The notes under the pieces are model-generated. The model saw only the letters and a program-made list of their open reading frames with translations. It did not search any database and was not told the DNA's origin. Of a stretch of 64,000 bases of DNA, positions 9,809 through 60,700 are shown one piece after another. Origin of the DNA: Allacma fusca (taxonomy: Eukaryota; Arthropoda; Collembola; Symphypleona; Sminthuridae); the NCBI GenBank assembly GCA_947179485.1, contig OX359246.1, positions 11,904,001 through 11,968,000 on the forward strand, given 5' to 3'. Made by a program: the position numbers and the translations under genes. Position 1 is the first letter of the stretch. Every line of letters begins with the position of its first letter.

Positions 9809-9816
9809 CATCGTAT
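9809..9816. repeat. Left target-site duplication of hAT MITE
   Basis: CATCGTAT directly precedes the element terminus and is repeated exactly at 10419-10426. An 8-bp duplication is diagnostic of hAT-superfamily transposition. Confidence 0.88.
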
Positions 9817-10418: not shown

Positions 10419-10426
10419 CATCGTAT
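10419..10426. repeat. Right target-site duplication of hAT MITE
   Basis: CATCGTAT, identical to 9809-9816, directly follows the right terminus CATCTCTG. Confidence 0.88.
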
Positions 10427-41801: not shown

Positions 41802-42515
41802 TGTAACGAGATTATTGGATGTTGAATCTCGTGCCCAAGTTCGGAACGAGTCGAGTAATGATGTGTAGTATTTTTGATGATAATAAAATAATCGTTGGCT
41901 AAAAATAAGTTTATACTGAATAATAATCTTGTATTAATTTATTCTAATTGAAATCAAAGATAAAATAAACTTGAAATGATAAAAGGATCTTAAAATAAAT
42001 CTTCCGTGTTGAAATTCCTCCATGGGAAGTCTCCATGAATTATATTGGGATCCAGGGATCTTTTCCCAATATAATTCTCCGCATGGCTGTGAGTCTTCAA
42101 GCCTTGGGCAGGGGCTGTAATGGATACGGATCTATGTCGTGAGCTTTGATCCGAACCATACGAGTGCCTCCCAAGAACTTACTGTCCCTTCTTGCTTGAC
42201 TTAATCTAAAGATTTGGTCTAGGACTATTTACATAGTATGTACATAATTACATTTCAACACAATCATCATAATTATTGTTTGTAATAACAATAGATTGAA
42301 TTGGGGTTAATGGATTTCACATTCCATTCTTCATTCGTTCTCCTCTCAGATTCTGCTGAGTGGAATTGCTGAATGATTCAAAAAGGTTAAATCTTCCCTT
42401 TTGAGATCTGTGGACGTGGTCTTTTATTTTCTGCTAACGTGACATCACGCGATCTTATGTCACGTAGCCTCCGTCTTTTGTCACGTTCCTCAGGTGTGCG
42501 AATTGGGACGTAACA
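41802..42515 (-). repeat. 3' LTR of the giant Ty3/Gypsy-type element (714 bp)
   Basis: Read on the element strand it begins TGTTACGTCCC and ends CTCGTTACA, so the ends are TG...CA within the 6-bp inverted repeat TGTTAC/GTTACA. A polypurine tract lies directly 5' of it. AATAAA occurs on the element strand near 42421-42432 and again near 41940. The flank is TATAT, an AT-rich target typical of this superfamily. The partner LTR lies outside the window, so length and duplication cannot be verified against it. Confidence 0.82.
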
Positions 42516-42800: not shown

Positions 42801-43550
42801 CTATGTTCGGGCGGGTAACCTTGCGGTTGATGGCCCTGGCGTGGGTGATGCTCGTACTAGTTTACATCCTACTAAACGTTCGAAACTGTTCTGAACTACT
42901 GTTGCGGTATCCGGGGCTGTAATCCTCTTCAATTCCTGGTATTGATGTCTTGATTCCGGTATTGGTCTACGAGCTATTATTCGACAATAATAGGCACTAA
43001 GGCTGATAATGGCTATTAGAATGAATATTCCAAAGCTGCTAAGGATGATGATAGTGAGATTGCTGTTTTCGGCGGGTGGTGGTGGAATCCACGTATCCCC
43101 TACGTCCTGTGCGTATTTTTGTAACCAAGGTGGATATCTGTTAAAGTCAACTTCGTCTGTAGAAGGATTTATTTGTTGGTTTATTTGTGGTCTCGGTAGT
43201 AACTGTTGCTGTTGTAGCTGCATTTGATTTTGAAGCTGCAATTGATTTTGTTGTTGAGCAGCTATCACGTTTGCATCTTGTGGGTCGTAAGGTACAACAG
43301 CCATTTGTCCATTGTTGCCTGGATGTAATAAATGCACAACAGGATCTTTTTGTGACAAATGAGTGGCGGTTATAGCTGTAGAGCCCACTAACATGGGTGG
43401 TACTACGTATTTTGCGATCCATGCTCCGATGGTAGTGAGTCCCGCTTGAACTACTGGTCCAATGGGTTCAGGATTCGGAACTGGACGTCCTTCAGTTTCC
43501 ACAACTGCGAGAGTTATGGTGATGTACAGAGTGAAAAGTCTAAGTGTCAT
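42801..43550 (-). CDS. Element ORF4: type I membrane protein (249 aa)
   Basis: It starts at an ATG (MTLRLFTLYITITLAVVETEG) that looks like a cleavable signal peptide of about 20 residues. An extracellular part follows with a Gln-rich stretch at about 98-128 (QLQLQNQMQLQQQQ) and a proline run near 156-159. One strong membrane helix spans about 165-188, with an NLT glycosylation site at its outer edge, then a basic stop-transfer (RIIARRP). The cytoplasmic tail contains YQEL, a tyrosine-type sorting motif. No database family is recognised. It is the last ORF before the LTR, the position of env genes in retrovirus-like elements, so an envelope-like or envelope-accessory role is possible, but it has few cysteines and no visible fusion peptide. 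A 620-bp gap upstream suggests expression from a spliced RNA. Confidence 0.7.
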   Translation of the reverse strand: MTLRLFTLYITITLAVVETEGRPVPNPEPIGPVVQAGLTTIGAWIAKYVVPPMLVGSTAITATHLSQKDPVVHLLHPGNNGQMAVVPYDPQDANVIAAQQQNQLQLQNQMQLQQQQLLPRPQINQQINPSTDEVDFNRYPPWLQKYAQDVGDTWIPPPPAENSNLTIIILSSFGIFILIAIISLSAYYCRIIARRPIPESRHQYQELKRITAPDTATVVQNSFERLVGCKLVRASPTPGPSTARLPART

Positions 43551-44173: not shown

Positions 44174-47100
44174 TTATTGCCTGACAGGTGGATCTTTTGT
44201 CAGGGAAGATGTATCGCCCTTCTTCTGGGGTAGCTTCCTGAAACTGATGATGATGAGTCTAGGTTCCGATGTTCCCAATCCCGATTTTATGTTGTACTTT
44301 CTTTTCAGATTCATTTCCTCCACGAATCTGTTGAATTCTTCATCGTTCGATAAGGCTAGTTGTGAAACATAAAATTGTGTTGGGGTTATAGGATCGGTTT
44401 CTCTTCGTCCTTCCAATAATTGATTTTCAGGGTCTCGTATTATTATTTCGGACTGTGGTAATCTCTTGAGGTTGAATAAGGTGCTGAGTATGTCGTCAGG
44501 GTTAGCTGGTACCTCTATTACTATTGAACTCCATGTTTCTGCTAAATTCAATCGGATTGTCTGCCTGACTAATGATAATTGTGTTGTGCCTGGTATGTAA
44601 TCGACTTGCATGTCTCGTACTCTTGCTGGAGTTGTTCGGCTTTGATGTAATGCTTCGACTGCTCGGGTCAGTCGGCTGAAGCGTTCTTGTCTCCAACAAT
44701 AGATGATGTTCAACTCGTTCAAATGTTCTATAAACAGTTTATGCTGTGGTTTTCGTATTGAAAACAAAATCCCTTCTGGATTCTCTACGTGAAGTGTAGC
44801 TGGGTAGATTTTGATGGTAGCACTGTATAGGTCAAAAATCCATTCTTCCCATTGTTCTATCTCATCTAAAATTTCCGCAATGGGTGAAGATTCCCCTTCT
44901 GATCTTATGGATTCTCCTGTCCATTCCTTCCATTTTTCTATAGCCGCTCTTTGTTTGTATAGAATGATAAGGCGCTGTGCCATGAGTTGGAATTCTCCAA
45001 AGGAAAGTTGATCGGCTGGTAAATCTGCTAACATCTGTAAGCCTGTCTCGGGTCGTCCTGTTATAGGCGCTCCACGGTGGATAAATGACTCCATCCACAG
45101 AGCTTGTTCTCCCCAACTGGGTTCCAATCCTATGTCATTCCATATGTGAATGAGTAATCGCCTTACTTCTGTTCCGGTTAATCCTTGAAAGGTACCGTGA
45201 TGTTCTCGGCATAGTAATTGCTCTGGAATTGTCGTCCCTTCGTTTGCTTTTAGGGAACGATATAGAGTGTCCCATAACTGTGCTATCATTTCGCCTGGGT
45301 GAATAGTTAAGTCGGTTGCTAATGTCTCCATTCTTGAGTCTGTAAAAGATATTCGTCTCCGTGCTTGACGGTAGATGATGGCAAGGTCTCGTTCTGCTGG
45401 TGCTACTGCTTGAAATTCAGTAGGGTGATCCATTGCCTCCTGTATTAACATTCGCCTTTCTCTGATAGTTTCCTGTCGAGTCTCTGTGTCAGCCTCGAAC
45501 ATGTTTTCTTCATAAGAGAAAGTCTCTCTTTGTGGTAGGTTCTGTGCTTGTTTCAACATTTCTTGTAGTTGTTCCAGTTTGAATTTTGGGTGTTTGTTTT
45601 CCTTCACCTTTTTCCTTGCAATTCTGGCCTCTATGGTTTCCATATGCATCCGATGTGTCCATTGGAAAAGACTATTTGCTCTCATTCCATCATTGTCTGG
45701 TTTACGTATGCATGGAAACTGTCTTGGGTCTCTGCTTGGTATATCTTGGCAATGTTGGCATCTGTCCATCATTGGCAATACTCCGTGTCCTTTACATACT
45801 CTGCATTGCGGTCTTTCGGTCCAATATGGTCTGCTTTCGTTCCTCCAATCGGGTGAATGATCTCTCATCATATTTCTTAGGTGTCTCTGCGCTCCTTCTG
45901 CTGGACTTCGATCACGAAAGCATTGTCGTCTTTGCTCTGGTGAAAGTCCCCTTTCGTTTTGTGCACTTCGTTCGGCTCTTCCTATTGCGAATGGTGATTC
46001 GACGTTTTGAAAGATTGTAGCTTGTGTAACTGAGTCGGGTCGATGTAGTACAATAAGCTCGCTTCCACTTCGGATGTATTGTGGATGCGAAATGTCAATC
46101 CGTGTTATAGTAAGGTCCCTTTCTTCAGGTGGGGTAGCGTTTCGAGAATTGGGTCTAGTATCGAAATCGTATCCCCTTTGGAATCTTCGAATGGTGTCCC
46201 TTTGTAGTTCAACTAATCTTTCTTGTTCTCGTACTTCTCTCTCTTCCTCAGATGCTTTCATAGCTTTCTCTATGTCTTTCCTTAGTTGTTCCTCCTCTAT
46301 TTCGCTTTCTGATTGTTCTTTCTCCTCGTCTGGAAGTGTTCCTGAGGTGCATTCTGTTGGATTTCCACATAGCATTTCGGGTGTTAATGGTGGATCCCAT
46401 CCTGCCTCTCTGTTTACTCTGGCAAGGAATCCAAACATCTCTTCTCCCTTTTTCATAACATCTAAGCTTGGACAGTCTAAGTTTATGAAGGATGGTCGTC
46501 TAGCTTTCTTTCTTGCCTTAGCTTTCTCTTTCTTCGGTTTAGGTTGATTTACTTGTGTCAAGGCTGGTGATGATGGTCGTTCCTCTTCTGGAGGTGCTGA
46601 TGGCGTAGGTGTGTTCAGCTCTCTTTCCTCTGGTGTGGCTTCGACATCAGTGTTTGGTGGAGTTTCTTTCAGAATTCCTTGTGGATTCTTTGTCTCGTCT
46701 ATTGCGAATGCTGTACCTATGTACAACAAGGTTCTAAAGATGAATCTTGTAAGGCCTTGTAGTATGCCTGTGTTTCTGGGTGCTGCTGATGATTCGCCGC
46801 TCTCCTTCTCCATTGCTCTTAATAATTCCAGTTGTTTTCTGATGAATTTGTGGTTGTACTCAATGGGTGTCCATGAGTTGTCTGGTCCAAGGAAAGCTTC
46901 TCTTTTTCGTCGTAGATGTGTCTCCTCCTCCCCTCTGGGAAGCTCGTTGCCCTCAACGATGGTAGTTCGACGAAAAAGTCTGCGTTGATTGAATGCCGTT
47001 ACTTGTGCATCAGTTTCCCATTTATTGAATGTATCTGTTTCGATGTGATTTACTCCCTTGTAAATCATGGGTAGTAAAATTGCAACTGTCATATTTGCTT

Positions 47101-50100
47101 CATGGATGGTAATAGCGGTGTTGAAGAAAACTAACTCTCCGTCCAAAATTTCCCTATCAGGATGTGTGAAATCTTCTCCCGTGGTTAGGCTATGAGGGTC
47201 ATCTTGGATTTGTCTTTGGATCTTTGATAAATCCTCCCTTGGGATAATACTTCTTTTGGTCCTGTTATTGTGTGGTTGATATCCTAGTATAATCTTTAAG
47301 CTTGATCCTAGGTGTTCATTGATACCTTTATCGACTGCTCTTTCTAAGGTCTCCACCTTGTTTTTAGTAAAAATACCAGGTAAAGTGTATTGTTGTAGTA
47401 TGTCGAATAACTGGAATAGTTTATGAGGTGAAAGTTTCCATCCGTCACGCATGACTCGTGAAAACATCAAAATTCCACTGGGTGTGTCAACTTCTTGGGG
47501 TTGATTTTCTTTGTGATTTTCTCCTTGTACGTAAATAGCTTTATTCCATAGTTGAGAAATGGATGAGTTTGTTAACCATTCAGCCTGTCTTTTTGCTCTG
47601 ACCGAAATGGTTTTCCGCACGTAGGGTGATGATGTAGTTGTTGTGGTGGTTGTGATTGGAACTTGGATATTAAGGTTATTTTCCAGTTCCATCACACTAG
47701 CTGTGTCAATAGGTAGTGTAATCCACATTGGTCTTCCGTCTTCAAGTTCGTATTTAACCATAATCCAATCATCTGGAATAGCTGCTCTTTGTCCACATGT
47801 TGGCTTCCAGTATTGTAAAACATAACTCATTGTCATGATAGTCCAAGTTAAGGCTATGGCTGCCATGGTGGCACATCCTTTTGCTGTATCGGATTCTTTG
47901 AATCTTTGAATCCAATTGGAAAAGAAAGGTCTCACATTTTCTCCAAAATTGTGAGGTGGCGGCTCACTATCTCTTGTATGAAGCCTGCGGTGTCGTTCCA
48001 TACTGTTGCATGTGAAATCGTCATGTTTCGCGGTCTCATTGAACGATTTCATTAGACGATTAAATCCTTCCCGTCCGTGTAAGTAATTGTTGGTGGTGAC
48101 GGGTCCTGGCAAACGTGTAGTTGGTGTCATTCCTAATCCCATTGTTACTACTCCCATGAGTAACATAAATGTGAAAAAGTTATATCCTATGGCTGGAATC
48201 GGTCCTCCGCGTCCTCCTCCTCCTCTGGGTGGAGAGTGATCATCCCGTGGTGGGCTGGGAGTTATTGGTAACTCTTCCGTATCCATACTTAAGGAAATGT
48301 CATGAGGTGGTGTAGCAAAATCCGATAAAGATGAGGATTCAATTTGTTGGTGTAGTTGAGTTGGTTCCAAGTATTTTTCCAATTCTGTTGCTATCTCGTC
48401 AGTTAAAAGTGGAGTGATAGCTCTCTCCAGTTCGGTTTGGGTTTTAAATACTTGAGTTATGTTGACGTTGCTATTAAGGGTGAGTAGCTCCTTCTCCCCT
48501 GTGGGTGGCTGGACTTCGGTTCCAGTCGCTCCCGTGCGTTGATATGGTCCTTGCGATGGCTCTGGTGTTGTCATTTCCGGGGGTTGGTTTGCTTCCATTG
48601 GCATATCGGGGAATTTCCTTGTGTCGGGGTTAATTCCCAGTAGAGTACATACGGCTGGAAAATTATGTTTAATTCTCCATGCTCTCCAATCAATACGTAT
48701 CTTATGCAATTGTTCTTGTGCATAGTCTCGCATTTCCTTAAAAATGGCTGGGTCCTTTCCATTGTGGGTTGCAAATAAAATAGATAAACTGTCTCGTTGT
48801 AGGTTGCGAACAATTTCGTCGTAGTGAGATTGTCGCTTTGAATCCAAATCCAAAATATGGATTGCTCGTTGTAATGGGTCTAGTGTTGGTAGAATAGTTT
48901 CCATTTCTGCCTCGGTCTTAGGTCCCTCGGCTTTCTTTCTAACTAATTTTTCGGTCTTTATGCGCTTTTTCATGTGGTGCTCGCATTCACCATTCTTAGG
49001 TTGAGGATCTGTCAAATTCATGGGGATATGTCGGGTCCTTTTGCATTTGGCATGAGTACATTTGATGTAGCTAATCTGCTTCACGATCTCAACTTCTGCT
49101 TCTGAGCTGACTGTTGATGTATCTGTAGTGGACCCTGGGCTTTGTGTATTTGATTGTTGAGGTGACTCATTTTCGATGATCATGACTTCTGGTGAAACTG
49201 GCTGATGTACTATCGCCTGAGGTGGTTGTGATTCTTTCCGATTTCCCGGAGTTGTTAATATGATATCCAGAGAAGTAGCCTTTTTTCCTTTGGCATCTTC
49301 TATCTGTACAACATTAACTTCCATGGCTGGCTGTATTGGCGTTTGGGGTGTGGATTGTATAGTTGGCTCCACTCGTGCTGTGTTGGGTCCTATAGTGCTA
49401 TGCTTTGTTGGAGTGGTTGGTGTAGATGTGAAAGGTTGTTCGCCTCGCCTCTGTTGTTCAGCCTTGGCCTCTCTTTGTGGTAGGGGTTTTTCGTCCCCAT
49501 GGTTGGAGTCCTTAGGGCTGCACGGCCTCTCGTTTCGTGGAGGTGTGGTGGGCCTCTTTAGGATTTTTTGGGTGTGAAAAGTTACCGTGTTGTAGCTGGC
49601 CTTGGCTGTGTCAATGGGTGGAGTAAGTATGGATTGTCTTTCCGTACTTCTACTCCTGACAGGTGAATTTCGGCTGCGTCGTCTATCCTCCTCGTTTGAC
49701 CTATGGCCAGTGCGTTCATAATGTCTTGCAGGTGACCTTCGTCTTTGATAATAGTAAGTGTCTCTATGTCTCCTGCTACTTGTGACAGTTTCTGTTCTGG
49801 GTGGCGTACTTTCTCTCGATCTCATCCTTTTGGGTGTATGGGATGAAATTTCTTCCGTTTTTCTAGATCGTTCCTCTTTGGAATTTTGGCGGTCTCTGGA
49901 ACTGTATCTAGAACTGCCAGGTTCTCGATCTTCATGACGATTATCTTTCCTCGTCTCTCTCCGTGCTCCTCTTCCTACTGCCACAGGCTGTACAAACTTG
50001 AAATCTGGTTCTTTGTCAGGTTTGTCAGATGTGACAGTGGCTGGTAATTTGGCTGGTTTGTCTTCCGGTCCCCAGTCACTTACTCCATGTAATCGTTTCT

Positions 50101-50776
50101 TCGTAAGTTTACATGCTGGGTCGGCTGTAAAAATTCTTTTGGCTGAGTTCACTGTGTACGGTTGTCTTTCGTCATCCAATTCTGGTGACGTGGCCCATGG
50201 AGTCCTCAAAAAATCGGTACAGGGTGGCATAATTGTTGACACTTCCCTTTCTCCTTTGAAGGGAACAATTTTCCATGGGTCTTCAGGTTGACGGTTTCTA
50301 TTACTGGCTGGTATTGCCACTTCATTTATCTTTGTGGGCTCAAAAGGTTGGTCTTTGAATAGAAATACCATATCATCCGGGACTCTCTTTCCTTCCCGAA
50401 TTTCTTTCTCCTCTTCCGCAAAATTTACGGAGCCGCAATAGTAAGGGTCTCTTTTCAACACTCTATAGTCGTAGTTAGAAATGGCACCAGTTTTCTGTAG
50501 TGCTCCAATGAAAAATGAATGACAGATGACTTCATTCTTTTGTTCTGTTCTGATGATGATTCTATTTCCAATTCTTCCATCTAGGTTGGTTACTGCCTCC
50601 AAACGATGGGTGTCCATGTTGGGAATAAGTTTTGATGTTGGTTGTGGAATCTCTGTAGTACTTACGTACTGTTTCCAGTATAATGGTCGTCTTGAGTCGT
50701 CATCCTCCTCTGAGGAATTATGTGACTCATTCCTTGCTGTTTGATATGTAGATGATTGCTGATCGTTTGGATCCAT
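44174..50776 (-). CDS. Element ORF3: giant membrane-spanning polyprotein (2,200 aa)
   Basis: It has an ATG start and an uninterrupted frame. Regions by approximate residue: 1-230 mixed, partly globular; 260-400 Arg/Ser-rich (SR-like); 400-560 disordered; 573-600 a Cys/His cluster (CTHAKC ... CEHH); 640-720 helical. A membrane helix lies at 863-880, another at 967-987 and a third near 1340-1358. Furin-like basic sites RAKRQ, RTKRS and RRKRE fall near 1060, 1172 and 1288, with N-glycosylation sequons nearby. At 1660-1677 CRVC...CQHC could bind zinc. The last 500 residues are charged and appear folded. The 860-1360 part resembles an envelope cassette in layout only; no family is recognised. The start overlaps the 83-aa GPY/F ORF by 50 bp and is in the same frame as pol. 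Confidence 0.75.
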   Translation of the reverse strand: MDPNDQQSSTYQTARNESHNSSEEDDDSRRPLYWKQYVSTTEIPQPTSKLIPNMDTHRLEAVTNLDGRIGNRIIIRTEQKNEVICHSFFIGALQKTGAISNYDYRVLKRDPYYCGSVNFAEEEKEIREGKRVPDDMVFLFKDQPFEPTKINEVAIPASNRNRQPEDPWKIVPFKGEREVSTIMPPCTDFLRTPWATSPELDDERQPYTVNSAKRIFTADPACKLTKKRLHGVSDWGPEDKPAKLPATVTSDKPDKEPDFKFVQPVAVGRGARRETRKDNRHEDREPGSSRYSSRDRQNSKEERSRKTEEISSHTPKRMRSRESTPPRTETVTSSRRHRDTYYYQRRRSPARHYERTGHRSNEEDRRRSRNSPVRSRSTERQSILTPPIDTAKASYNTVTFHTQKILKRPTTPPRNERPCSPKDSNHGDEKPLPQREAKAEQQRRGEQPFTSTPTTPTKHSTIGPNTARVEPTIQSTPQTPIQPAMEVNVVQIEDAKGKKATSLDIILTTPGNRKESQPPQAIVHQPVSPEVMIIENESPQQSNTQSPGSTTDTSTVSSEAEVEIVKQISYIKCTHAKCKRTRHIPMNLTDPQPKNGECEHHMKKRIKTEKLVRKKAEGPKTEAEMETILPTLDPLQRAIHILDLDSKRQSHYDEIVRNLQRDSLSILFATHNGKDPAIFKEMRDYAQEQLHKIRIDWRAWRIKHNFPAVCTLLGINPDTRKFPDMPMEANQPPEMTTPEPSQGPYQRTGATGTEVQPPTGEKELLTLNSNVNITQVFKTQTELERAITPLLTDEIATELEKYLEPTQLHQQIESSSLSDFATPPHDISLSMDTEELPITPSPPRDDHSPPRGGGGRGGPIPAIGYNFFTFMLLMGVVTMGLGMTPTTRLPGPVTTNNYLHGREGFNRLMKSFNETAKHDDFTCNSMERHRRLHTRDSEPPPHNFGENVRPFFSNWIQRFKESDTAKGCATMAAIALTWTIMTMSYVLQYWKPTCGQRAAIPDDWIMVKYELEDGRPMWITLPIDTASVMELENNLNIQVPITTTTTTTSSPYVRKTISVRAKRQAEWLTNSSISQLWNKAIYVQGENHKENQPQEVDTPSGILMFSRVMRDGWKLSPHKLFQLFDILQQYTLPGIFTKNKVETLERAVDKGINEHLGSSLKIILGYQPHNNRTKRSIIPREDLSKIQRQIQDDPHSLTTGEDFTHPDREILDGELVFFNTAITIHEANMTVAILLPMIYKGVNHIETDTFNKWETDAQVTAFNQRRLFRRTTIVEGNELPRGEEETHLRRKREAFLGPDNSWTPIEYNHKFIRKQLELLRAMEKESGESSAAPRNTGILQGLTRFIFRTLLYIGTAFAIDETKNPQGILKETPPNTDVEATPEERELNTPTPSAPPEEERPSSPALTQVNQPKPKKEKAKARKKARRPSFINLDCPSLDVMKKGEEMFGFLARVNREAGWDPPLTPEMLCGNPTECTSGTLPDEEKEQSESEIEEEQLRKDIEKAMKASEEEREVREQERLVELQRDTIRRFQRGYDFDTRPNSRNATPPEERDLTITRIDISHPQYIRSGSELIVLHRPDSVTQATIFQNVESPFAIGRAERSAQNERGLSPEQRRQCFRDRSPAEGAQRHLRNMMRDHSPDWRNESRPYWTERPQCRVCKGHGVLPMMDRCQHCQDIPSRDPRQFPCIRKPDNDGMRANSLFQWTHRMHMETIEARIARKKVKENKHPKFKLEQLQEMLKQAQNLPQRETFSYEENMFEADTETRQETIRERRMLIQEAMDHPTEFQAVAPAERDLAIIYRQARRRISFTDSRMETLATDLTIHPGEMIAQLWDTLYRSLKANEGTTIPEQLLCREHHGTFQGLTGTEVRRLLIHIWNDIGLEPSWGEQALWMESFIHRGAPITGRPETGLQMLADLPADQLSFGEFQLMAQRLIILYKQRAAIEKWKEWTGESIRSEGESSPIAEILDEIEQWEEWIFDLYSATIKIYPATLHVENPEGILFSIRKPQHKLFIEHLNELNIIYCWRQERFSRLTRAVEALHQSRTTPARVRDMQVDYIPGTTQLSLVRQTIRLNLAETWSSIVIEVPANPDDILSTLFNLKRLPQSEIIIRDPENQLLEGRRETDPITPTQFYVSQLALSNDEEFNRFVEEMNLKRKYNIKSGLGTSEPRLIIISFRKLPQKKGDTSSLTKDPPVRQ

Positions 50777-50978
50777 CTAGACGGGTGACTTTGAAGATCT
50801 TGTCGGCAAAAACTTGGTCAATAAAAAATGGTCCAATATGCTTAACTCTTTTCCTTCTGGAACCGTCGTAATAACGAGTTGTTGAAAGTCTGATTACTTC
50901 TCCCACTGAATATTTCCGTGGCTGAAATTGATATGGATCTGAACACTTCAAAATATGGTGCAGATAATAGAAGTTCAT
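50727..50978 (-). CDS. Element small ORF: detached GPY/F (SH3-like) module, 83 aa
   Basis: The ATG at 50978-50976 overlaps the pol TGA (50977-50975) as AUGA, and its stop lies 50 bp inside ORF3, so it bridges the two giant frames. Residues 24-81 (SVGEVIRLSTTRYYDG ... HIGPFFIDQVF ... YISNSK) align along their whole length with the integrase C-terminal module in Pol (KIGDSVRVFTPTRVIG ... YRGPFKVIEVL ... VERLK), including the GPF core. GPY/F domains bind DNA or multimerise integrase in Ty3/Gypsy elements. A free second copy is unusual: it might assist integration, or be a remnant of a pol duplication. The overlap suggests translation by termination-reinitiation. Confidence 0.75.
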   Translation of the reverse strand: MNFYYLHHILKCSDPYQFQPRKYSVGEVIRLSTTRYYDGSRRKRVKHIGPFFIDQVFADKIFKVTRLDGSKRSAIIYISNSKE

Positions 50979-53900
50979 ACCTCGGTTTCAAAACCAAATC
51001 TTTGAGGTGACTTCCTCCGGCGGGTGGGGTATCTATTCTGAGTTACTTTCTCTTTTTCACAATTACTCTCGTCGACGGTATCTGAGAGTACTGTGCGATG
51101 TGAAGAATTGGTTTGTATTGTAGAGCTTCCTGAAGTAGTATCTTTGTCCTCTCCTGAGCTATTTCCGACGTTATCAGTAACTGTTGAATTTGGATGTCCA
51201 ATATTCGTTGGAAAGTTGTTATTTCCTCCTTGATTTGTTTGATTCGTTCCCTGGCCAACTTTTGTTGAGCTATTTTTGACATTAGGTTCCTCTTCTGTAG
51301 AGCTTTCTACTTCTTTTCTTGCTTCTTGCTCTGGAGTTCTAGTATTCTCAATTTCAACACTCTCTGATTGTGTTGGGCTTGTCTCAGTTTCTCTGCTGTC
51401 TCCTCCAACTGTTTTTTGAGTTGAGCTTGGGTCGCCTCCGCCTCTTTTATCTCTGGCGTTGTGACTTCTGGAGATGTTGGGGGTGATGTGTGACTTGATT
51501 TGTCTGACATTCAACGTTTGCTCTGCTCCTTCCGGCGTTGAAAAGCTCTGTTCTCCTCCGCTATCTCCTCCTGGAGGGCCAATAATTCGTGTCTCAAATT
51601 CTCTATCTCTGTCCGAATTCTTGGCAAGGCTCTCCTCACCACTTCGGCTTGTGCAAAAAGTCTCACGTTCTCCGTTGTCACTCTGGCTATCTGTGCTCTC
51701 AATTCGGCCTCCGAATGATTGGGTAGTTGTGGCGGGTTGGCGTGTGGCGGTGTCATAAGTATTTTTCAGCGATTGTTTCTCAGTGTTTGCAGGTCCGATC
51801 GTAACTTTTGGGCCTGCTGGCGAAGATCTTGAAGCTGTCTCTGGAGTTCTACCTGTTGCCTTTCTGCGTTCTCTAGTGCTCTCCTCAACTCTATGTTTAG
51901 AGCTCTCGCCTGTTGTGACTCTTGTACTAGAGGGTTGTAATATGGGGGGTTGTTTCTCTGCATCTAATTGTCTTTGGTCACTGCAAGTACGAGCATATCT
52001 TTGATACTTGCTAGTGCCCACTTGATGTCCGTTAGCTCGCTCTCGAGAAGTTGATTGATTTGCTGTTGGAGTAAAAGTGCCTGTTGCAGGTGTTTGATCT
52101 GTTTGCGAAGGTGATGAATCGCTGGAAATTGGTCCTCGGGGTAAAGGCTGTGCTCCGGCATTAGTACAAATAGGATCTTTTTGTACTGTATGCTGTTCGT
52201 GTTCCTCACTTTCTAATGGTTCTTTGAAAGTGAGTCTCTTTCGCTTAGGCTGAGCTGAACTCTCAGGTTGAGTAGTAGTCTTTAAAATTGATTTTAGCAC
52301 AAAGTCACTTTGCTCTTTTTCCACCAAGTTCCAATTTCTTTTTGTTACAATCTCCACTAAATCTGAATCCAGATCGTATCTGAACTCTTCTTCCAAGTCC
52401 TCACGGCGTGTGCAGGGCTTGAGTCGCTCTACGTGTACCTTTTGTGTTTTCTTTGGATTTTTGTAATCCTGAATAATGTAGTTGTCCTTTGATAAAACTT
52501 CAATAACTTTAAATGGACCTCTGTATGGGTGTAGGAATCGCTCTGATTTTCCGATCACTCTGGTTGGTGTGAAGACTCGTACTGAATCTCCAATCTTAAA
52601 TTGTACTTGTCTTCTCTTCCGATCGTACCAATCTTTACTATACTGTTGTCTTTGTGTAATCTTCTTTATTGCTTGTTGGAGCCGGGCTTTTGCTTCGTCG
52701 GCTGTTATTAAGTCGTAGTTGACCGTTTCACAAGACATAATCATATCCATGTCATCAATATGTTCCCTCCTAAACATCATAAAGAATGGGGTCTCTCCCG
52801 TCACATCATGTCTTGATGTGTTATAGGCGTGAATGAGATAAGGCAGGCACATGCACCAAATACTTTGTTCTTGTTGTGCATAGTGGCTAAGCATTGTACT
52901 TATGGTCTGAACCATTCTCTCAATTTGTCCCACGCTATTATGCCTCATTGCAGTTGCTGTCGTATGATTAATCTTCAGTTTTCTTAAAAGTTGCTTTGTC
53001 ACTTCCGCTCGAAATTCTGATCCAGCGTCGCTCATCAGATTTTTGAAAAGTCCAAATTTTAAAACTACATGATGAAGTAAAAAATTTGCTATCCTCTCAG
53101 CGGTTTTATCTGGAATAGGCTGAGCAATTACGTATTTAGAAACGTAGTCTTGGGCTATAATGATGTACTTGTGTCCATTTACACTTGTATGTATAGGGCC
53201 TATAAGGTCTATACAAAGTGCATCGCCTACATTTTCTACTCGTATAGGGTGTAAGAGTCCGGCGGGCTTTTGCCTTGGGATCTTTGCTGCTTGGCAGCTT
53301 TCGCATGACATTACATATTTAGCCACTGAAACTTGGATCTTTTTCCAGTGGTACTTTCGACATAGTCTATGAAGCGTTTTCTGAAATCCGAGATGGCCTC
53401 CACATAATAATCCGTCGTGGGCCTTAGTTAATAAAAAATTTCTCAAAACTCTAGGCACTATGAGTTTTGGTCCATCTTTATGTTGGACATATAAAATGCC
53501 ATGGTCATCATAAAAATACTTCTCGTATTTTTGTTTGTCTCTCCACTTGAGTGAGTTCAAATGGGTCATCATGTCCTTTATGTGAATACAGTCTGGGTCT
53601 TTGTTTTGCATTTCTTCCAAATTATGCTCTTTTAATGGCAGTACTTGTGGTTCTTCCTCCAATGTTATGGCTAGGTCCTGAAATTTTTCCCCTTCTCCTT
53701 GGCACCCCTGCAGTGCGAAGGCTCCTATATAAAACTTCGGTTCATTTTCAGGTTCTAATTCTGGGTGCCGCTCCTCATAAAACTGGGGTTGCGGTATATT
53801 TGTAGGAAGTATTCTTGGATTGTCCTTTGGAGGGTTTATTGTTTCAACTCTCCATTTTTCTCCATTTGTAAACTTCAACTCTCCTGAGTCTAAACTTTGT

Positions 53901-56900
53901 TGTAATTGTTCAATATTTTCATCTAGTAATTTCCATTCTTGCTCTGATTCTTGAGGATTCACGTACAATTGGGTACCGGGGGTATTTATTTCTTCCTCCG
54001 TAACCAATGGCACGGCATTTCTTTGAATCTTATTCAACCAGATCTGTATATCTTCGTAAATCTTCTTGATTTTCTTCTCGTTCGAGTCTTCCAAATCCTC
54101 TGTATTCTCTGAGTTGCTGTGACCTGGCCGTGGTCCTACAGAGGTTGTTTGTATTCCTCGTGGTTCTCGGCCAGTGCATAACATCTTGTGGAAATTCTCC
54201 TCGTTGGATTTTTCATCTCTATCCTGAAGATTGTTTGAAGATTCGGGCTGCTCCTCAACTGGGTTGTCATCATTTTCTTTCCTTAATTTGCTGGGAGTAA
54301 TGTGCTCCACTGTGAAGATTCGGTCTTTCTTCGCCGTGGATGTACATAACTCCTCGTGAATTAGTTTGTCAACTGTTGTCTCCGCTATTTTTCCACTGCC
54401 GGGTACGGCGAGCGTTGGCTTGGACTCTGTAATTTCAGCGTCCGCGAGCGCTCCCGCATCTGTTGGTTCTGGGCTATCTTCCGGCTTCTCATCTGCATCC
54501 TGGAATTGGTCCATATAGCTTGGTTCTTTATTGGATTTGGCGGTTACGGTGGGCTGGGCTGTTGAAAATGTTTCTTCATTTTCCAGAACGGCCCACGTAT
54601 CCGCTGGATTTTTATCCTCTTCATCTGAAGATACTTCCGAAGGATCTTTGAAGTATTCCAGATTAATTTCCTTTGTGAATGACTGATCTTTTGCCATGAA
54701 CTCGCGATTTGAACCCAGAGAATGTGTCTTCTCTGCGTCTTTTCCCGTGTCATGGCTGGGGCATTCTGAATCATCATTTGAACCTTTGAATACTTGTTCT
54801 GGAGATTCTCCTATGTGTGAGTTATGGTAATCAATTTCCCTCATGATATTAATATTCTGCTCGTAAATGTATTCATTTGAGTAAACCCATTTTGATGTGT
54901 TGTCTTGTCCGTTTTCTATTTCTGTAGCGAAGGTGCAAACTGTAACCATAGTATCCACGGATAGTGACCATTTAGTGCACATATCTGTCCCAAGTGTATT
55001 TTGTTTCACTAGGTCTCGTATGTACATTTCATGGTCGGTCCATTTAGTTTCTTCACCTGGTGCTGGTTGATGTATCAGAAGTTCCACTCGTTTTACTGGC
55101 TTATCCCAATCTTTACTAGGACTTGCATCCTCTGCTTGATTAGGAGAGTACTGTAGTTGTGAATCCAACCCCAGCACTTCCCTAGTCTGCTCAGAGATTT
55201 GCATACTTGCTGCTACCGCTGGTCCTCTTTTCAAAAGAATTTTCCGATCACTTACTGGATCTGGTTCGTATTCTATTACGAGGTCTTCCTCATCTTCCTT
55301 GTCTTCCTCTGTGTGTGGTAGAGGCGCTCTGGAAAGAAAATCTGCATCAAGATGAGTCTTTCCAGTTCTGTAAGTAATGACATAGTCAAATTCCTGTAAT
55401 TTAAGGATAAATCTGCTGATTCTGTGGTTTGGTGACTTCTGTATGTCCAAGTATTTAAGTGCTAAATGATCACTTCTGATGTGGAATTTCCGTAGATACA
55501 GGTATTGTCGGAATTTTCTAACTGCAAAAACTACTGCTGTTAATTCGAGTTCTGTAGCAGAGTATCGTTTTTCTGAAGGCAATAAGGTTCTGCTTGCATA
55601 GGCAATTGGATGCTCTCCATCTTCATCTTGGAGTACACAGCATCCTAATCCTTCTAATGATGCATCTGTATGTAAGATACAATTTAGTATTGGGTTGAAG
55701 TGCTTTAATACGGGTGCAGTTGTAAGCTTTTCTTTAAGGATCTCAAAAGCTTCTGTTGCTTCATCTGTCCAATGGAATGCGTGAATTCTTTTCTTCCCTT
55801 CTGACTTGCCTTTACTTCCTATCCAAGATTGTGATATTGGGTTGGCTATTTTTGCAAAATCCTTTATGTATCGTCTATAAAAACTACAAATTCCGTAAAA
55901 TCTTCTGGCTTCAGTCTCTGACTTTGGAATCTTGACCTTCTTAATTGTTTCTATCTTGCCTGGGTCTGGGCAAGTACCTTCTCGTGAAACTTTAAATCCT
56001 AAGACAATAATTTCATAGTAACCAAATTTACATTTTGAAGGCTTAAACTTGAAGTTTTTGTTGCTAGCTCTGAGAAGCAATTCTTCCAATGATGCCAATT
56101 TGTCTTCCATGTTGATTCCATATGACACAACATCGTCTAGGTAAACCATGGCTCCTCGGAATTTTAAAGAACCTATCATCTGGTCTGCTGCACGTTGAAA
56201 CGCTGAAGGTGCTATCTTTGCTCCCATTGGAAGTCTTAAAAAGCAGTAAAGTCCATCTTGGGTAATAAATGAAGTTTTCACTTGATCATCTTCGTGAATT
56301 AATAACTGAAAGAATCCTGATTCCATGTCCAAGGTGTCGAAGATGGCTGATTTGTTGAACTGCATCAGTATGTCATCAATTCTGGCTATAGGATAAACTT
56401 GATCTGTAATTGTTTTGTTCAGTGCTCTGTAGTCTACGACTGATCGGAAAGTTCCGTCCTTCTTTTTGATGAGAAATAGCGGACTGCTATATGGTCCATT
56501 TACTTCCTTGATGATATTGGCATCTAACATCTTTTGGATTTCCTCTCTCACCTTTTCGCGTTCTACTGGCGAGCAAGGAAATGGTTTACATTGTACTGGT
56601 GGGTTGTTTCCAGTGTGGATTCTGACGGGTTCTACCCATGCTGGTTCTTTCAAGTCGGCTTTGCTGAAAGCAAAACATTCCGGGTATCTTGCAAGTAATG
56701 CTCGGTATTGAGCTTTTGCCTGTTCTGGTAATTCCGGGTTGATGTCAAAACAATCCAATTGTTCCTGTGTTAATCTCAAACTTGTGTCTCGGAGATTTTC
56801 TCTTTTTATTTTTAGAATTTTGAAGTCTTCCTCCGCATATCCAACTGCCGTCCTTCCATACATAGTCTGGGCTCCTGCTGACGGGTTGAATACATATGCA

Positions 56901-57703
56901 TATGGATCTTCCTGTGGAACAATCCCTGCTGCTACCAATAGCCTGTTGCTGGTATAAAGTTGCTCCAAGGGATTGAGTAGAAAGTCCTTCTTGATTTTTC
57001 TTGGAATGTGGATAGGTACTTTCATATGAGTCATTGCTGGAATGGTGACTGTTTCCTTTGTCCTACATATTTGACTTGCTTTAGGCTTCTTTTGATTGAA
57101 GGAAAAAATTGATTTGACAAATTCGGTATCTGCTTTCTTTTGTCCCATATATAGATGCGTGTCCCTGGTCATTGGGATGGTTTTGAAATAAGGGCTTCGG
57201 ATCTCTCCCTTCTCATAGTCAATCAAAACTTTGTATTTGGTCATCAGATCTTCTCCTATTATCATCTTGGGCTCAAGGGTTTCCAAAACTAAGCCTTTGA
57301 ATTGTAGTTCTACTCCTTCAATTGTCATCGGAAATTTTGCTATGCACATTGGCTTGATTAATTCTCCCGATGCTATTGCGACACGAAGCCTGCTAGGTGC
57401 TTCTGCGATCTCTGCACATTTTGGTAAAAGGTTTCGTTGTATGCAGGATCTTGTTGCTCCAGTATCCAAAAGTACTGGCATTACCATACTGCAAATCTGA
57501 ACTTGGATTGTTGCTTTACTTCCGTTAACTATTCTGCATGGATTACAGTCTACTATTTCTAATTCCTCGTATAATTCTTCCATTTGTAGTTGTTTGTCTA
57601 TGAACATCTGTACTTGTTGTTGGACATCGAGTGTTATTGGGGGTGCATCCCCCTCTGTGGGTTTCCCGAAGGATGTGGACTTGACCGGCGTTTCTTTTGG
57701 CAA
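50975..57703 (-). CDS. pol: Element Pol: protease, RT, RNase H, integrase (about 2,240 aa)
   Basis: The frame is open from 57733; its first residue here is a TTG codon, so no ATG is needed: Pol is made by -1 frameshifting from Gag at 57661-57667. Positions count from that TTG. Protease LLDTGA is at 78-83. RT is about 385-570 with LPMG at 491-494 and YLDD at 521-524. RNase H is about 675-792 (D680, E720, D745). A 630-aa acidic, low-complexity insert follows (793-1425). The integrase zinc finger has H1429, H1437, C1467 and C1470; the core is D1499, D1559 and E1595 with exactly 35 residues between the last two. GPF is at 1729-1731. The tail from about 1770 is Ser/Thr/Glu-rich. Domain order is Ty3/Gypsy (Metaviridae). 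No break was seen, so the copy may be active or very young. Confidence 0.93.
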   Translation of the reverse strand: MPKETPVKSTSFGKPTEGDAPPITLDVQQQVQMFIDKQLQMEELYEELEIVDCNPCRIVNGSKATIQVQICSMVMPVLLDTGATRSCIQRNLLPKCAEIAEAPSRLRVAIASGELIKPMCIAKFPMTIEGVELQFKGLVLETLEPKMIIGEDLMTKYKVLIDYEKGEIRSPYFKTIPMTRDTHLYMGQKKADTEFVKSIFSFNQKKPKASQICRTKETVTIPAMTHMKVPIHIPRKIKKDFLLNPLEQLYTSNRLLVAAGIVPQEDPYAYVFNPSAGAQTMYGRTAVGYAEEDFKILKIKRENLRDTSLRLTQEQLDCFDINPELPEQAKAQYRALLARYPECFAFSKADLKEPAWVEPVRIHTGNNPPVQCKPFPCSPVEREKVREEIQKMLDANIIKEVNGPYSSPLFLIKKKDGTFRSVVDYRALNKTITDQVYPIARIDDILMQFNKSAIFDTLDMESGFFQLLIHEDDQVKTSFITQDGLYCFLRLPMGAKIAPSAFQRAADQMIGSLKFRGAMVYLDDVVSYGINMEDKLASLEELLLRASNKNFKFKPSKCKFGYYEIIVLGFKVSREGTCPDPGKIETIKKVKIPKSETEARRFYGICSFYRRYIKDFAKIANPISQSWIGSKGKSEGKKRIHAFHWTDEATEAFEILKEKLTTAPVLKHFNPILNCILHTDASLEGLGCCVLQDEDGEHPIAYASRTLLPSEKRYSATELELTAVVFAVRKFRQYLYLRKFHIRSDHLALKYLDIQKSPNHRISRFILKLQEFDYVITYRTGKTHLDADFLSRAPLPHTEEDKEDEEDLVIEYEPDPVSDRKILLKRGPAVAASMQISEQTREVLGLDSQLQYSPNQAEDASPSKDWDKPVKRVELLIHQPAPGEETKWTDHEMYIRDLVKQNTLGTDMCTKWSLSVDTMVTVCTFATEIENGQDNTSKWVYSNEYIYEQNINIMREIDYHNSHIGESPEQVFKGSNDDSECPSHDTGKDAEKTHSLGSNREFMAKDQSFTKEINLEYFKDPSEVSSDEEDKNPADTWAVLENEETFSTAQPTVTAKSNKEPSYMDQFQDADEKPEDSPEPTDAGALADAEITESKPTLAVPGSGKIAETTVDKLIHEELCTSTAKKDRIFTVEHITPSKLRKENDDNPVEEQPESSNNLQDRDEKSNEENFHKMLCTGREPRGIQTTSVGPRPGHSNSENTEDLEDSNEKKIKKIYEDIQIWLNKIQRNAVPLVTEEEINTPGTQLYVNPQESEQEWKLLDENIEQLQQSLDSGELKFTNGEKWRVETINPPKDNPRILPTNIPQPQFYEERHPELEPENEPKFYIGAFALQGCQGEGEKFQDLAITLEEEPQVLPLKEHNLEEMQNKDPDCIHIKDMMTHLNSLKWRDKQKYEKYFYDDHGILYVQHKDGPKLIVPRVLRNFLLTKAHDGLLCGGHLGFQKTLHRLCRKYHWKKIQVSVAKYVMSCESCQAAKIPRQKPAGLLHPIRVENVGDALCIDLIGPIHTSVNGHKYIIIAQDYVSKYVIAQPIPDKTAERIANFLLHHVVLKFGLFKNLMSDAGSEFRAEVTKQLLRKLKINHTTATAMRHNSVGQIERMVQTISTMLSHYAQQEQSIWCMCLPYLIHAYNTSRHDVTGETPFFMMFRREHIDDMDMIMSCETVNYDLITADEAKARLQQAIKKITQRQQYSKDWYDRKRRQVQFKIGDSVRVFTPTRVIGKSERFLHPYRGPFKVIEVLSKDNYIIQDYKNPKKTQKVHVERLKPCTRREDLEEEFRYDLDSDLVEIVTKRNWNLVEKEQSDFVLKSILKTTTQPESSAQPKRKRLTFKEPLESEEHEQHTVQKDPICTNAGAQPLPRGPISSDSSPSQTDQTPATGTFTPTANQSTSRERANGHQVGTSKYQRYARTCSDQRQLDAEKQPPILQPSSTRVTTGESSKHRVEESTRERRKATGRTPETASRSSPAGPKVTIGPANTEKQSLKNTYDTATRQPATTTQSFGGRIESTDSQSDNGERETFCTSRSGEESLAKNSDRDREFETRIIGPPGGDSGGEQSFSTPEGAEQTLNVRQIKSHITPNISRSHNARDKRGGGDPSSTQKTVGGDSRETETSPTQSESVEIENTRTPEQEARKEVESSTEEEPNVKNSSTKVGQGTNQTNQGGNNNFPTNIGHPNSTVTDNVGNSSGEDKDTTSGSSTIQTNSSHRTVLSDTVDESNCEKEKVTQNRYPTRRRKSPQRFGFETEV
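51043..51282 (-). CDS. Nested coiled-coil ORF 5 (79 aa), +1 frame of pol tail
   Basis: ATG start, 24 bp after the stop of nested ORF 4, same frame. The first 60 residues form a predicted amphipathic helix (RIKQIKEEITTFQRILDI, then QQLLITSEIAQERTKILL) with Leu/Ile at heptad spacing, followed by a short basic end (VIVKKRK). No family is recognised. It is fully inside pol, whose frame here is disordered. Expression is unproven. Confidence 0.5.
   Translation of the reverse strand: MSKIAQQKLARERIKQIKEEITTFQRILDIQIQQLLITSEIAQERTKILLQEALQYKPILHIAQYSQIPSTRVIVKKRK
51307..51510 (-). CDS. Nested coiled-coil ORF 4 (67 aa), +1 frame of pol tail
   Basis: Its ATG directly follows the TGA of nested ORF 3 (TGAATG). 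A Ser/Pro/Thr-rich head of about 18 residues (MSDKSSHTSPPTSPEV) leads into one charged helix (AQLKKQLEETAEKLRQAQ, LKLRILELQSKK) with heptad leucines. No family is recognised. Coupled reinitiation after ORF 3 is the simplest expression route. Confidence 0.5.
   Translation of the reverse strand: MSDKSSHTSPPTSPEVTTPEIKEAEATQAQLKKQLEETAEKLRQAQHNQRVLKLRILELQSKKQEKK
51511..51756 (-). CDS. Nested coiled-coil ORF 3 (81 aa), +1 frame of pol tail
   Basis: ATG start 9 bp after the stop of nested ORF 2. Head MTPPHANPPQLPNHS, then a long helix (ELRAQIARVTTENVRLFAQA, IRTEIENLRHELLALQEEI) with clear a/d hydrophobic positions. The same head-plus-helix plan is seen in ORFs 2 and 4. No family is recognised. 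Confidence 0.52.
   Translation of the reverse strand: MTPPHANPPQLPNHSEAELRAQIARVTTENVRLFAQAEVVRRALPRIRTEIENLRHELLALQEEIAEENRAFQRRKEQSKR
51766..51963 (-). CDS. Nested coiled-coil ORF 2 (65 aa), +1 frame of pol tail
   Basis: Its ATG directly follows the TAG of nested ORF 1 (TAGATG). Head MQRNNPPYYNPLVQ, then a textbook heptad helix (LRRALENAERQQVELQRQL, LRQQAQKLRSDLQTLR) rich in Gln, Arg and Leu. It is probably an oligomerising coiled coil. No family is recognised. Confidence 0.55.
   Translation of the reverse strand: MQRNNPPYYNPLVQESQQARALNIELRRALENAERQQVELQRQLQDLRQQAQKLRSDLQTLRNNR
51964..52161 (-). CDS. Nested coiled-coil ORF 1 (65 aa), +1 frame of pol tail
   Basis: The frame is open from 52209 (GTG) but the first ATG is at 52161, giving 65 residues, the same length as ORF 2. 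Head MPEHSLYPEDQFPA, then helix LRKQIKHLQQALLLQQQIN, LLESELTDIKWALASIKDML. It ends in TAG immediately followed by the ATG of ORF 2. No family is recognised. Confidence 0.5.
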   Translation of the reverse strand: MPEHSLYPEDQFPAIHHLRKQIKHLQQALLLQQQINQLLESELTDIKWALASIKDMLVLAVTKDN

Positions 57704-60700
57704 TTTCGTGCCTGATGTCCCGGCTCTCCACAGTTAAAGCAAGATTGATCTCTCTGTGGAGGTTCGATGGCCAATTGACCTTCATTATTTGGCTGGATTT
57801 GCTGTTGTTGATTATTTTGACGGTAATCATTGTTGTAGCCTCTTCCTCCAGATCTGTTCCTCTGGTTTCCGTCTCTGGAGTTGCTCCTACTTCGGCCATT
57901 ATTATTGTAGCCTTGGTTGTATCCTTGATTGTTGTTGTATCCTTGGTTATTGTTGTAGTATCCCTGGTTGTTATTGTATCCAGGGTTGTTATTATATCCA
58001 GGGTTGTTATTGTAGTATCCCTGGTTGTTATTGTATCCAGGGTTGAATCCTTGTTGATTGTACCCTTGATTATAATTTTGTTGATTATAACCTTGTTGGT
58101 TCCAACCTGGATTGTTGTTGTATCCTTGGTTAGGTCCTGGATTGAATCCGTTATTATATTGGCCTTGATTCTGATAGTTGTTAAATCCTTGATTATAACC
58201 TCGGCCTGGACTTCTGCCTCTGTTATCGTACTGTTGATTATTATAGGGTCTATAATCATTCCGATATTGTTGGCGTCCTCTGTCCTGGCCTTGATTATTG
58301 TATCCTCGGTCTGGTGTTGGCGATCTTCCTCTATACCCGTTATTGTTGTAACCTTGGTTTCTTTCAGGCGTCGGGTTCCTACTTTGATTTCTGAAATCCC
58401 TGTTGCCTCCGTTGTAGTTTCTATTTTGGTTCCCCGGACTTGGTGTTCTATTATTGTCAAAATTTCTTCTTCCTGGACTCTGTCCTCTATAGTCTTGAGA
58501 TCTTGGTTCCGGTTGCTTGAATTCTGAAGTAGTGTTCATCACTGCTAATTTCTCGAAGGTAGTTACTGCCGTAGATTTCTTCATCATTTCTTCCATCATA
58601 TTTTGCATCTTCTCTAGTCTTGCTTCCATTGATTCTCCTCCATCAGCTCTTCTATCGTCGTTGTATTTCTTTGCCCATTCCTGTAGTGCTGGGACTGTGT
58701 ATAATTCCCATCCTCTGCACTGTACTTGATATTCTTTTGAGAATCCTATGCGGATGAGTCTTAATTTTTCTTCCTCCGGCATGTTAATGTTTACTCTGTT
58801 AATCAGGCTGAGTTTTGCATCAATATAGGTGGATGGATCTTCATCCGATTTCATCACTCGTTTTTCCATTATGGTCCGTAGTACCTGCGGTGTAATTTGG
58901 TACCGTCGGATAAAATCTGCTCTGAAGTCCTCCCATTCTATATTATCATAGGGGGCTTCCTCTTCTGCTCGTCTTTCGGCTATCCAATTTGTAATCCAAT
59001 CCCGTACTGGTGAGTCAAAGATCAAAGTTATGTATCTCAACTTTGCCTCTGGTGTCTGAGCTGCTCCAAATCTGATTGCTTGGAGTTCTGCCTGTTCTAT
59101 TGCCAGTACTGGGTCATCTTGTGATGGCTTAAATTCCACCTTTGTCATAAATAGAGCTGCCATGTCGTCTAATGGTTCGTATTCGATTTGTGCTACTAAT
59201 TGTACTCGTACTCTTTGTCTGCCCTGAGGTCTTTGTGGATTTTCCACTTGGTTATTTTGTTGGTTGTTTCGCTGTTGGTTTCTGTTAAGTCTGTGATTAT
59301 TTCGACGTGGTTCTTCACGTGCGTTGGAGTTATCACTGGATGATGAAGATGATGTGGAAGAAGTGGATGATGATGAAGATGATGATGGGTCTTCTGGGTC
59401 TTGACTAGCACGTTGTCTACTTCCTGCTCTTCCCGCTCTTCCTCCTCGGCTGCCTCCTCTGTTGGTAGGTTGCCTTCCTCGGGAAGAATTAGAACCTCCT
59501 CTGCCTTGATGACCTCTTGAACTTGCACTTGCTCCTGCTCCTCCAGTGGGTGGGTCCCTTCTAGAGGATGGATTGTTGGGTCCTGTATTACCGTTATCTC
59601 TTTCTCGTATTTCTGCTAATCTGTCAAGATGTTTCTGGACTTGTTCTCGGACTTCTTCCGGTAAATCCTGTATTTGAAATCTGGGTATTCGGTATCCGAC
59701 TCTCCTATCGTCTCTCAGGTGGATGTAACCTTGGCTCAGTCCAAGTCTCTGAATAACGTTAGCTGTTGCTTGAATAACGTCGTTATGGCTTAGTGGGAAA
59801 ATATATCTGTCTGCTGTAAATTCCTGCGAAAAGAATCCTTCGTTGTCTATAACTACGTAAAAATGGTTAAATTCCCGGTTTAGGCTATCGTCACTAAATT
59901 GTGGATTTAATTGCGGTCCGGGTGATAACGGAGAATCCGGTGATGCTGGACTTTCTTCTGCTAAGCTATCGTCGCTTCCTCGCTCTGCATCGTCAAAGCT
60001 ATATTCGTTATGTTGTTCTTCTTGAAGAAGTAGTAACAATGCTTCGTAATGATCTTCTTGCTCCAATATGCTCACTAGCTGTCTTGCTGTTGGTTGAGCG
60101 TCTCGTATACCGTGTCTGTAATTAATATTCCGGTATCTGATTCTTCTACCGTTGTTATAGAAGATCGTTACGAAATCTGGATCTCCTAGTCTGCTTCCTA
60201 ATAATCGGTGAAAAGCTGCGCTCTGATTAGCACTTGTGACGATATTTTCGTATTCGAACCTTGTTACTGGGCTTGCAATGAATTGGCGTTGTACGTGTGT
60301 GGGTGGTTCTCTGTGAACTAATCCTTCTTCAATATCTAACCAGATTAATCTTCTCACGTTGTTTGTCCAAATTGCATCTATAGCTGCTTGTCTCTGTTCG
60401 TCTATTAATCTTTGTTGATTTCTTGAGAGATTAATAAGTTCTCTGGTGGTAACTGATCGTTCCTCAAAGTTGGGTCGGACGCTTGGGGATGATGGTGTGT
60501 GAACTGATCCGTCTGGTGCTATTCTTACCGTATATCTGGTGTTCGCCCAATTGTCTCTAAATGATCTTCCAGGTCGTCTTGGTGAATTGCCTGGGAATTC
60601 GTGATCTGGGTTGGTTGGTGGAAATACCTGCACGGGTTGTCTTGCGGTGGCTCCAGTTAAATTCGTAACTACCCTTGTGGTACTTTGGGTATTTGGAGGT

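Follow-up and report, generated by a model that had tools for sequence, protein, structure and literature searches.

Five conserved tandem reading frames with predicted coiled coils, overprinted on the pol tail of a Ty3/Gypsy-type retroelement in Allacma fusca

The minus strand of the window, by which we mean the whole 64,000-nt stretch of Allacma fusca DNA that was analysed, carries an LTR retroelement of about 25 kb, whose features are collected in Table 1. The domain order of Pol, the GPY/F module of its integrase, and the LTRs flanking gag-pol point to the Ty3/Gypsy type. In Pol, the RVP, RVT_1, RT_RNaseH, Integrase_H2C2, and Integrase_p58_C domains follow one another above their Pfam cut-offs, and the rve core scores 26.7 bits, which is under its cut-off of 32.6. 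The two LTRs are the same at 714 of 714 aligned bases (41802-42515 against G000:C8:11970142-11970855, the latter beyond the window), indicating that the element, about 25.05 kb long, was inserted recently.

Residues 1400-2242 of Pol have 22 distant matches in the protein database, the nearest of which is at most 33% identical. Searches of IMG/VR with Pol and with the env-like protein found no relatives, and the GTDB genomes searched with Pol gave no match. The env-like protein has no match in Pfam or in the protein database; by eye, its ORF displays furin-like RAKR, RTKR, and RRKR sites together with hydrophobic stretches. The 249-aa ORF encodes a possible second membrane protein. On the 5' side of gag, a leader of 2463 nt (2.46 kb) with 25 ATGs occupies 63678-66141 (window numbering, running beyond the window end; L046), and the bases that follow the 5' LTR do not start with TGG.

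Table 1. Features of the retroelement, listed 5' to 3' along the minus strand (window positions)
Feature	Position	Strand	Description
5' splice-site-like AAAG/GTAAGA	63660..63669	-	just after the gag ATG; rank 3 of 673 by a splice-donor consensus
gag	57634..63678	-	2014 aa; CCHC zinc knuckle
pol	50975..57703	-	2242 aa; PR, RT, RNase H, integrase with GPY/F, long low-complexity tail; ORF1-ORF5 lie in its +1 frame
ATG-free pol stretch	52162..52737	-	576 nt upstream of ORF1; possible leader of a putative subgenomic RNA
ORF1	51964..52161	-	65 aa; heptad helix behind a short polar head; omega 0.59 (pooled), the least constrained of the five
ORF2	51766..51963	-	65 aa; heptad helix behind a Pro/Asn head; ATG directly follows the ORF1 stop (TAGATG); omega 0.20
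ORF3	51511..51756	-	81 aa; single long helix behind a Pro-rich head; omega 0.22
ORF4	51307..51510	-	67 aa; heptad helix behind a Ser/Thr/Pro head; ATG directly follows the ORF3 stop (TGAATG); omega 0.33
ORF5	51043..51282	-	79 aa; mainly helix, basic C-terminus; omega 0.45
ORF6	50727..50978	-	83 aa; pol+2 frame; ATG overlaps pol TGA (ATGA); omega 0.14-0.23
env-like ORF	44174..50776	-	2200 aa; start inside the 3' end of ORF6
249-aa ORF	42801..43550	-	N-terminus resembling a signal peptide and hydrophobic segment at the C-terminus (both by eye); downstream of the env-like ORF
3' LTR	41802..42513	-	TGTTACG...CGTTACA; identical to the 5' LTR outside the window

The initial annotation described five consecutive ATG-initiated ORFs in the frame +1 to pol, and all five are present with the lengths it gave. 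Their junctions are also as it reported, two of them abutting and the other gaps being 9 and 24 nt, and the pol frame indeed stays open throughout the array, as far as 50975. From its composition, the pol tail is probably disordered. Each of the five products is predicted to consist of a short head followed by one coiled-coil helix and to form a small homo- or hetero-oligomer, the prediction of oligomerisation being drawn from the heptads only. A model of ORF3 alone has an unstructured low-confidence head and a single helix covering residues 16-80, with a mean pLDDT of 91. The Pfam matches of ORF1-ORF5 all fall below the cut-offs and are mostly to generic coiled-coil families. A common descent of the five by tandem duplication was also considered but is not claimed here, the similarity being marginal against heptad- or codon-preserving nulls (best of ten pairs: P 0.017 for protein and P 0.022 for DNA).

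It had further been claimed that chance frames would not normally give repeated coiled coils whose stops lie only at start-coupled junctions, and the array was set against chance expectations. When the synonymous codons of the pol tail are permuted (5,000 times), the +1 frame contains on average 1.22 ATG-initiated ORFs of at least 65 aa and never more than 4, as compared to the 5 observed. A comparison set of 58 tests along gag, pol, and env (29 windows in two frames each, the last pol window overlapping the array) gives a lowest P for ATG-ORF length outside the pol tail of 0.06. The +1 frame holds 250 coiled-coil residues vs 43.9 +/- 31.6 in 3,000 synonymous permutations, where the maximum is 153; the scoring used the Lupas matrix. 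A matrix-free measure is provided by T at the pol wobble position, which gives hydrophobic residues in the +1 frame. Its periodicity at 3.5 codons is 2.12 in the array, compared to 1.02 +/- 0.27 in 27 other, partly overlapping windows of the element, the highest of which reaches 1.50 (permutation P 2e-4). From each of the four internal stops, the next in-frame ATG is 0, 3, 0, and 8 codons away, respectively (P 8.5e-5). Given the +1 proteins, 13.0 +/- 2.7 stops would be expected in the pol frame, with a minimum of 4 in 10,000 draws, and none is observed. Elsewhere in the element, the window at pol codon 187 (about codons 187-560) has a stop deficit in the +2 frame (11 vs 23.9, z -3.8) and contains no ATG ORF of 60 aa.

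A search of the 392.7-Mb genome located 38 copies, including that of the window, which are 69-100% identical; all the evidence discussed here comes from this one element family in one genome. The other 37 copies were compared as 2.07-kb pieces. All five ORFs have exactly the same length in 25 of the 37, and the ATGs of ORF1 to ORF5 are retained in 33, 35, 36, 37, and 36 copies, respectively. The reading of the initial annotation thus withstands its own refuting test, by which a broken +1 frame or lost ATGs in related copies would have marked the ORFs as by-products. The pol tail is open in 28 of the 37; among these, L031, L037, and L039 break ORF4 and/or ORF5, and L038 has two extra codons in ORF2. 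One further copy, L034, keeps all five ORFs despite a stop in pol. The stops of ORF1, ORF3, and ORF4 are the identical codon in 34/34 alignable copies, and ORF2 likewise ends in a stop in 34/34.

The substitution analysis used two sets of copies. The pooled set comprises 34 of the 37, leaving out L041, L042, and L045 (broken or poorly aligned) and using L043 only below 52080. The 25-copy intact set comprises the 24 copies with both frames at exact length and L038 with its two extra codons. The upstream pol identities of L037 and L039 are distorted by indels and were not used.

Between the window copy and L040, the substitutions at pol codon positions 1/2/3 number 18/11/46 upstream of the array and 91/39/21 within it, which means that the most variable position shifts to the third base of the +1 codons. 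For the same pair, omega in the array, calculated with kappa 2 from simple counts of opportunities, taking the window copy as reference, rather than from a joint overlapping-frame model, is 0.22 [0.16-0.29] in the +1 frame and 2.00 [1.32-3.57] in pol. The distinct changes pooled from the 34 copies, treated in the same way, give 0.30 for pol upstream, 1.61 [1.34-1.91] for pol and 0.37 [0.32-0.43] for the +1 frame in the array, 0.46 [0.26-0.80] for the pol C-terminus after ORF5, and 0.23 [0.16-0.32] for ORF6 in its own frame; the values of ORF1-ORF5 in Table 1 are from this pooled set. In the 25 intact copies the corresponding values are 0.24 for pol upstream, 1.86 for array pol, 0.24 (95% 0.18-0.30) for array +1, 0.41 for the pol C-terminus, and 0.19 for ORF6, with a codon-position chi-square p of 1.3e-21. 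Parsimony counts of events on a tree lead to 0.25 for +1, 1.95 for pol, and 0.14 for ORF6. The pol values above 1 in the array are attributed mostly to the constraint of the other frame rather than to positive selection.

A blind three-breakpoint search, which has no knowledge of the ORFs, places the breaks at 52277/52276, 52115/52114, and 51043/51042. The third of these falls exactly where the ORF5 stop codon ends. At its other end, the +1 pattern begins 47 nt inside ORF1, whose first 16 or so codons are not clearly constrained, and the stretch between the first two breaks has a mixed pattern. The start of ORF6 was not recovered as a separate break in this three-breakpoint search.

The +1 proteins, ORF6, and the pol C-terminus are all under purifying selection. 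Constraint confined to the pol frame, which the initial annotation had held to speak against its reading, is not what is found in the array, where the +1 proteins are constrained and the sequence of pol is not. It is highly likely that ORF1-ORF5 are genuine accessory genes, conserved as proteins, of this young ~25-kb Ty3/Gypsy-type element.

Selection keeps pol open through the array, but the pol sequence is not kept. Among 341 changes that are synonymous in the +1 frame, 8 create pol stops vs 29.4 expected (P 1.6e-6), and the pol identity to L040 is 71% in the array and 89% upstream. The last 22 or so pol codons are constrained again and encode a conserved basic C-terminus (RYPTRRRKSPQRF). 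The avoidance of stops together with these constrained final codons suggests that translation of pol continues across the array, where its product would be an unconstrained spacer, and so reaches the conserved C-terminus. By eye, the distant Pol P0004 has a similar ending.

ORF6, which is absent from the list of the initial annotation, follows the five-ORF array, and its coding status is independent of the resemblance described here. A profile was made from the pol domain together with 18 C-terminal domains of database Pol proteins. Against it, ORF6 scores 18.2 bits, compared to at most 12.6 in 3,000 shuffles, and this score tops those of the other stop-to-stop fragments of 60-400 aa in the window. 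The pairwise score with the pol domain is 48 vs 26.8 +/- 4.9, the best of 500 shuffles also reaching 48. A single-sequence model of ORF6 is all-beta with low confidence (mean pLDDT 59), its Foldseek matches in the PDB include, weakly, foamy virus integrase (E about 1), and there is no Pfam match. ORF6 can thus be described as a free-standing module that resembles an integrase C-terminal domain, being GPY/F-like rather than a proven member of that class.

The region around the array contains few AUGs. After 52738 and down to 50776 (1.96 kb), there are 8 sense ATGs in any frame, 7 of which are the starts of ORF1-ORF6 and of the env-like ORF, the only non-start one (51996) being located inside ORF1. 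Dinucleotide shuffles would place 17.3 +/- 3.2 ATGs in 52500-50770 (P 0.002 for depletion). All five array ATGs have weak contexts, with neither a purine at -3 nor a G at +4 (P 0.002-0.003), while those of gag, ORF6, the env-like ORF, and the 249-aa ORF are moderate. The -3 base of each array ATG is unchanged in 34/34 copies, that of the ORF2 and ORF4 ATGs doubling as the first base of a stop, and a G at +4 of ORF1 appears in 1/34.

Other counts make this evidence mixed. Given the pol protein, the ATG numbers are not low (6 vs 8.1 +/- 1.6 in +1, and 0 vs 1.0 in +2), and gag also has ATG-free gaps on the minus strand, at 61970-61292 (678 nt) and 59990-59163 (827 nt), as well as windows with 3 ATGs. 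AUG-creating changes amount to 4/290 upstream vs 15.0 expected (P 7e-4) and to 20/710 in the array vs 29.2 (P 0.045). Among changes that are synonymous in the constrained frame, AUG gain is not significantly rare (2/143 vs 3.9 and 2/341 vs 3.7), and strong selection against it is unsupported once only these changes are counted.

The splice sites are weak and the acceptors unconvincing. The donor-like sequence after the gag ATG and the CAG before this ATG are separated by an 18-nt segment that contains the ATG, and of 11 probed copies, the 7 with an alignment across both sites have them unchanged; of the remaining four, one covers the donor only (unchanged), one falls short of the site, and two have no match. 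The CAG itself, noticed by eye as an acceptor candidate, lies under the listing cut of the crude splice-site scan and was discarded. Within the ATG-free stretch, no acceptor ranks higher than 44 of 1968. The site at 52769 ranks better (8 of 1968) and is followed by four ATGs at 52755-52738.

We propose polycistronic translation of a subgenomic RNA that would be produced by splicing to an acceptor within or close to the ATG-free stretch. Scanning ribosomes would leak past the five weak AUGs, and some of them would reinitiate at the abutting or near stop-start junctions, such that ORF1-ORF6 and the env-like ORF could all be made from one AUG-poor RNA. The abutting junctions fit serial reinitiation, and the weak start contexts fit leaky scanning as well; we consider the chances of a polycistronic RNA that combines the two to be slightly better than even. 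The ORF1-ORF5 proteins may, as a guess, be partners of Gag or the genomic RNA in regulation or assembly. More tentatively, and with somewhat less than an even chance, the whole may constitute a kind of AUG-poor operon, in which eukaryotic ribosomes would serially translate six small conserved cistrons, including the five that are overprinted one after another in pol, with the five as matched coiled-coil partners assembling together and pol as an open, sequence-free carrier frame there.

An alternative is that each +1 ORF, or group of them, has its own spliced RNA, with no leaky scanning or reinitiation on one polycistronic message. Acceptor-like sites do occur in the array at 51570, 52062, 51090, and 51980 (ranks 7, 20, 30, and 39 of 1968, respectively), but the AUG-poor stretch in which nearly all AUGs are used, the two abutting stop-start junctions, and the uniformly weak starts argue for the single polycistronic RNA, and we regard separate messages as rather unlikely. 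Much less probable is that the five ORFs are joined into a single longer coiled-coil protein, or a few such proteins, by readthrough of their stops, by frameshifting, or by small introns. Although the five share one frame with single stops between them, the ATG that closely follows each internal stop is conserved, the stops themselves are retained in all the alignable copies, and the Pro-rich heads of ORF2-ORF4 also speak against such a fusion.

It could also be supposed that the +1 ORFs yield no product and are a by-product of a pol tail rich in Gln, Arg, Glu, and Ser codons. The low T content at the second pol codon position makes +1 stops rare in any case, so that their number alone is less striking (5 seen vs 8.3 expected in the synonymous permutations of the pol tail, P 0.02), and the synonymous codon choice in the +1 frame resembles that of off-frames (synonymous-only codon score -0.099; the full codon score of -0.013 is the highest of the +1 windows listed). 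The heptads exceed the synonymous permutations, however, and selection on the +1 proteins instead of the pol sequence, as seen in the frame-specific substitutions, in effect refutes this possibility, which we judge extremely improbable. A nucleic-acid signal for packaging or splicing, in place of +1 protein coding, is next to negligible, the constraint being codon-periodic over 1.1 kb and stopping at the ORF5 stop, with +1-synonymous sites varying freely and no Rfam match at gathering thresholds in 42000-64000.

Several known systems share parts of this arrangement. Among the Caulimoviridae, rice tungro bacilliform virus (RTBV) and badnaviruses, as described in PMC5902531, have small ORFs without internal AUGs and with suboptimal starts before a large ORF (ORF I/II/III), and use leaky scanning over about 900 nt. 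The consecutive small ORFs, suboptimal contexts, and lack of internal AUGs between starts are alike (here with one exception, 51996), but those are plant pararetroviruses with two small ORFs before the polyprotein ORF, whereas here five or six lie in and after pol. The same source describes the polycistronic RNA of CaMV (Caulimovirus), which is spliced with a donor in the leader and on which reinitiation takes place after long ORFs; the consecutive ORFs are similar, but CaMV requires the viral transactivator TAV, and none was identified in the Allacma element. Extra ORFs downstream of pol are reported for the bdelloid LTR retrotransposons Vesta, Juno, and TelKA (PMC5408684) and additional ORFs for plant LTR retrotransposons (PMC7264820), some of the ORFs after pol being coiled-coil or transmembrane. 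In those elements an ORF3 follows pol, whereas here five genes are inside pol and ORF6 and the env-like ORF are added; the term 'overlap' is absent from the main text of PMC5408684. Cer1 CERV, an LTR retrotransposon of C. elegans, offers a functional precedent in an accessory protein made from a spliced RNA and involved in genomic RNA export (PMC10309623), although it is one protein and is not described there as nested in pol. In hepadnaviruses the envelope ORF is nested in the replicase P ORF (PMC5604429), so that there too the polymerase of a reverse-transcribing element contains an overprinted gene, but it is the envelope gene of a DNA virus, and several small genes in a row are not involved.

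The literature thus knows LTR elements with accessory ORFs downstream of pol, and reverse-transcribing viruses with overprinted genes; the arrangement described here is without precedent in what we found. By titles and the beginnings of abstracts, the literature search returned no tandem coiled-coil genes inside a Gypsy pol, most subscription papers being outside its coverage.

Five tandem conserved genes nested in pol would show that a polyprotein tail can host a whole gene set. Selection would here invert the usual hierarchy, the hidden frame being constrained and the pol sequence not, and annotation that retains the longest ORF only will miss such genes. With 25 copies that are intact in this region, identical LTRs in the window copy, and fixed start contexts, the array lends itself to testing polycistronic translation in an animal genome and the origin of small coiled-coil genes.

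The host DNA of the window contains, at 825-11392 on the minus strand, three XK-related ORFs, with no protein-database match for a host XK-like gene. At 16000-41500 on the plus strand, it carries tandem diverged repeats, with carboxylesterase matches in two ORFs, one of them just below the Pfam cut-off.
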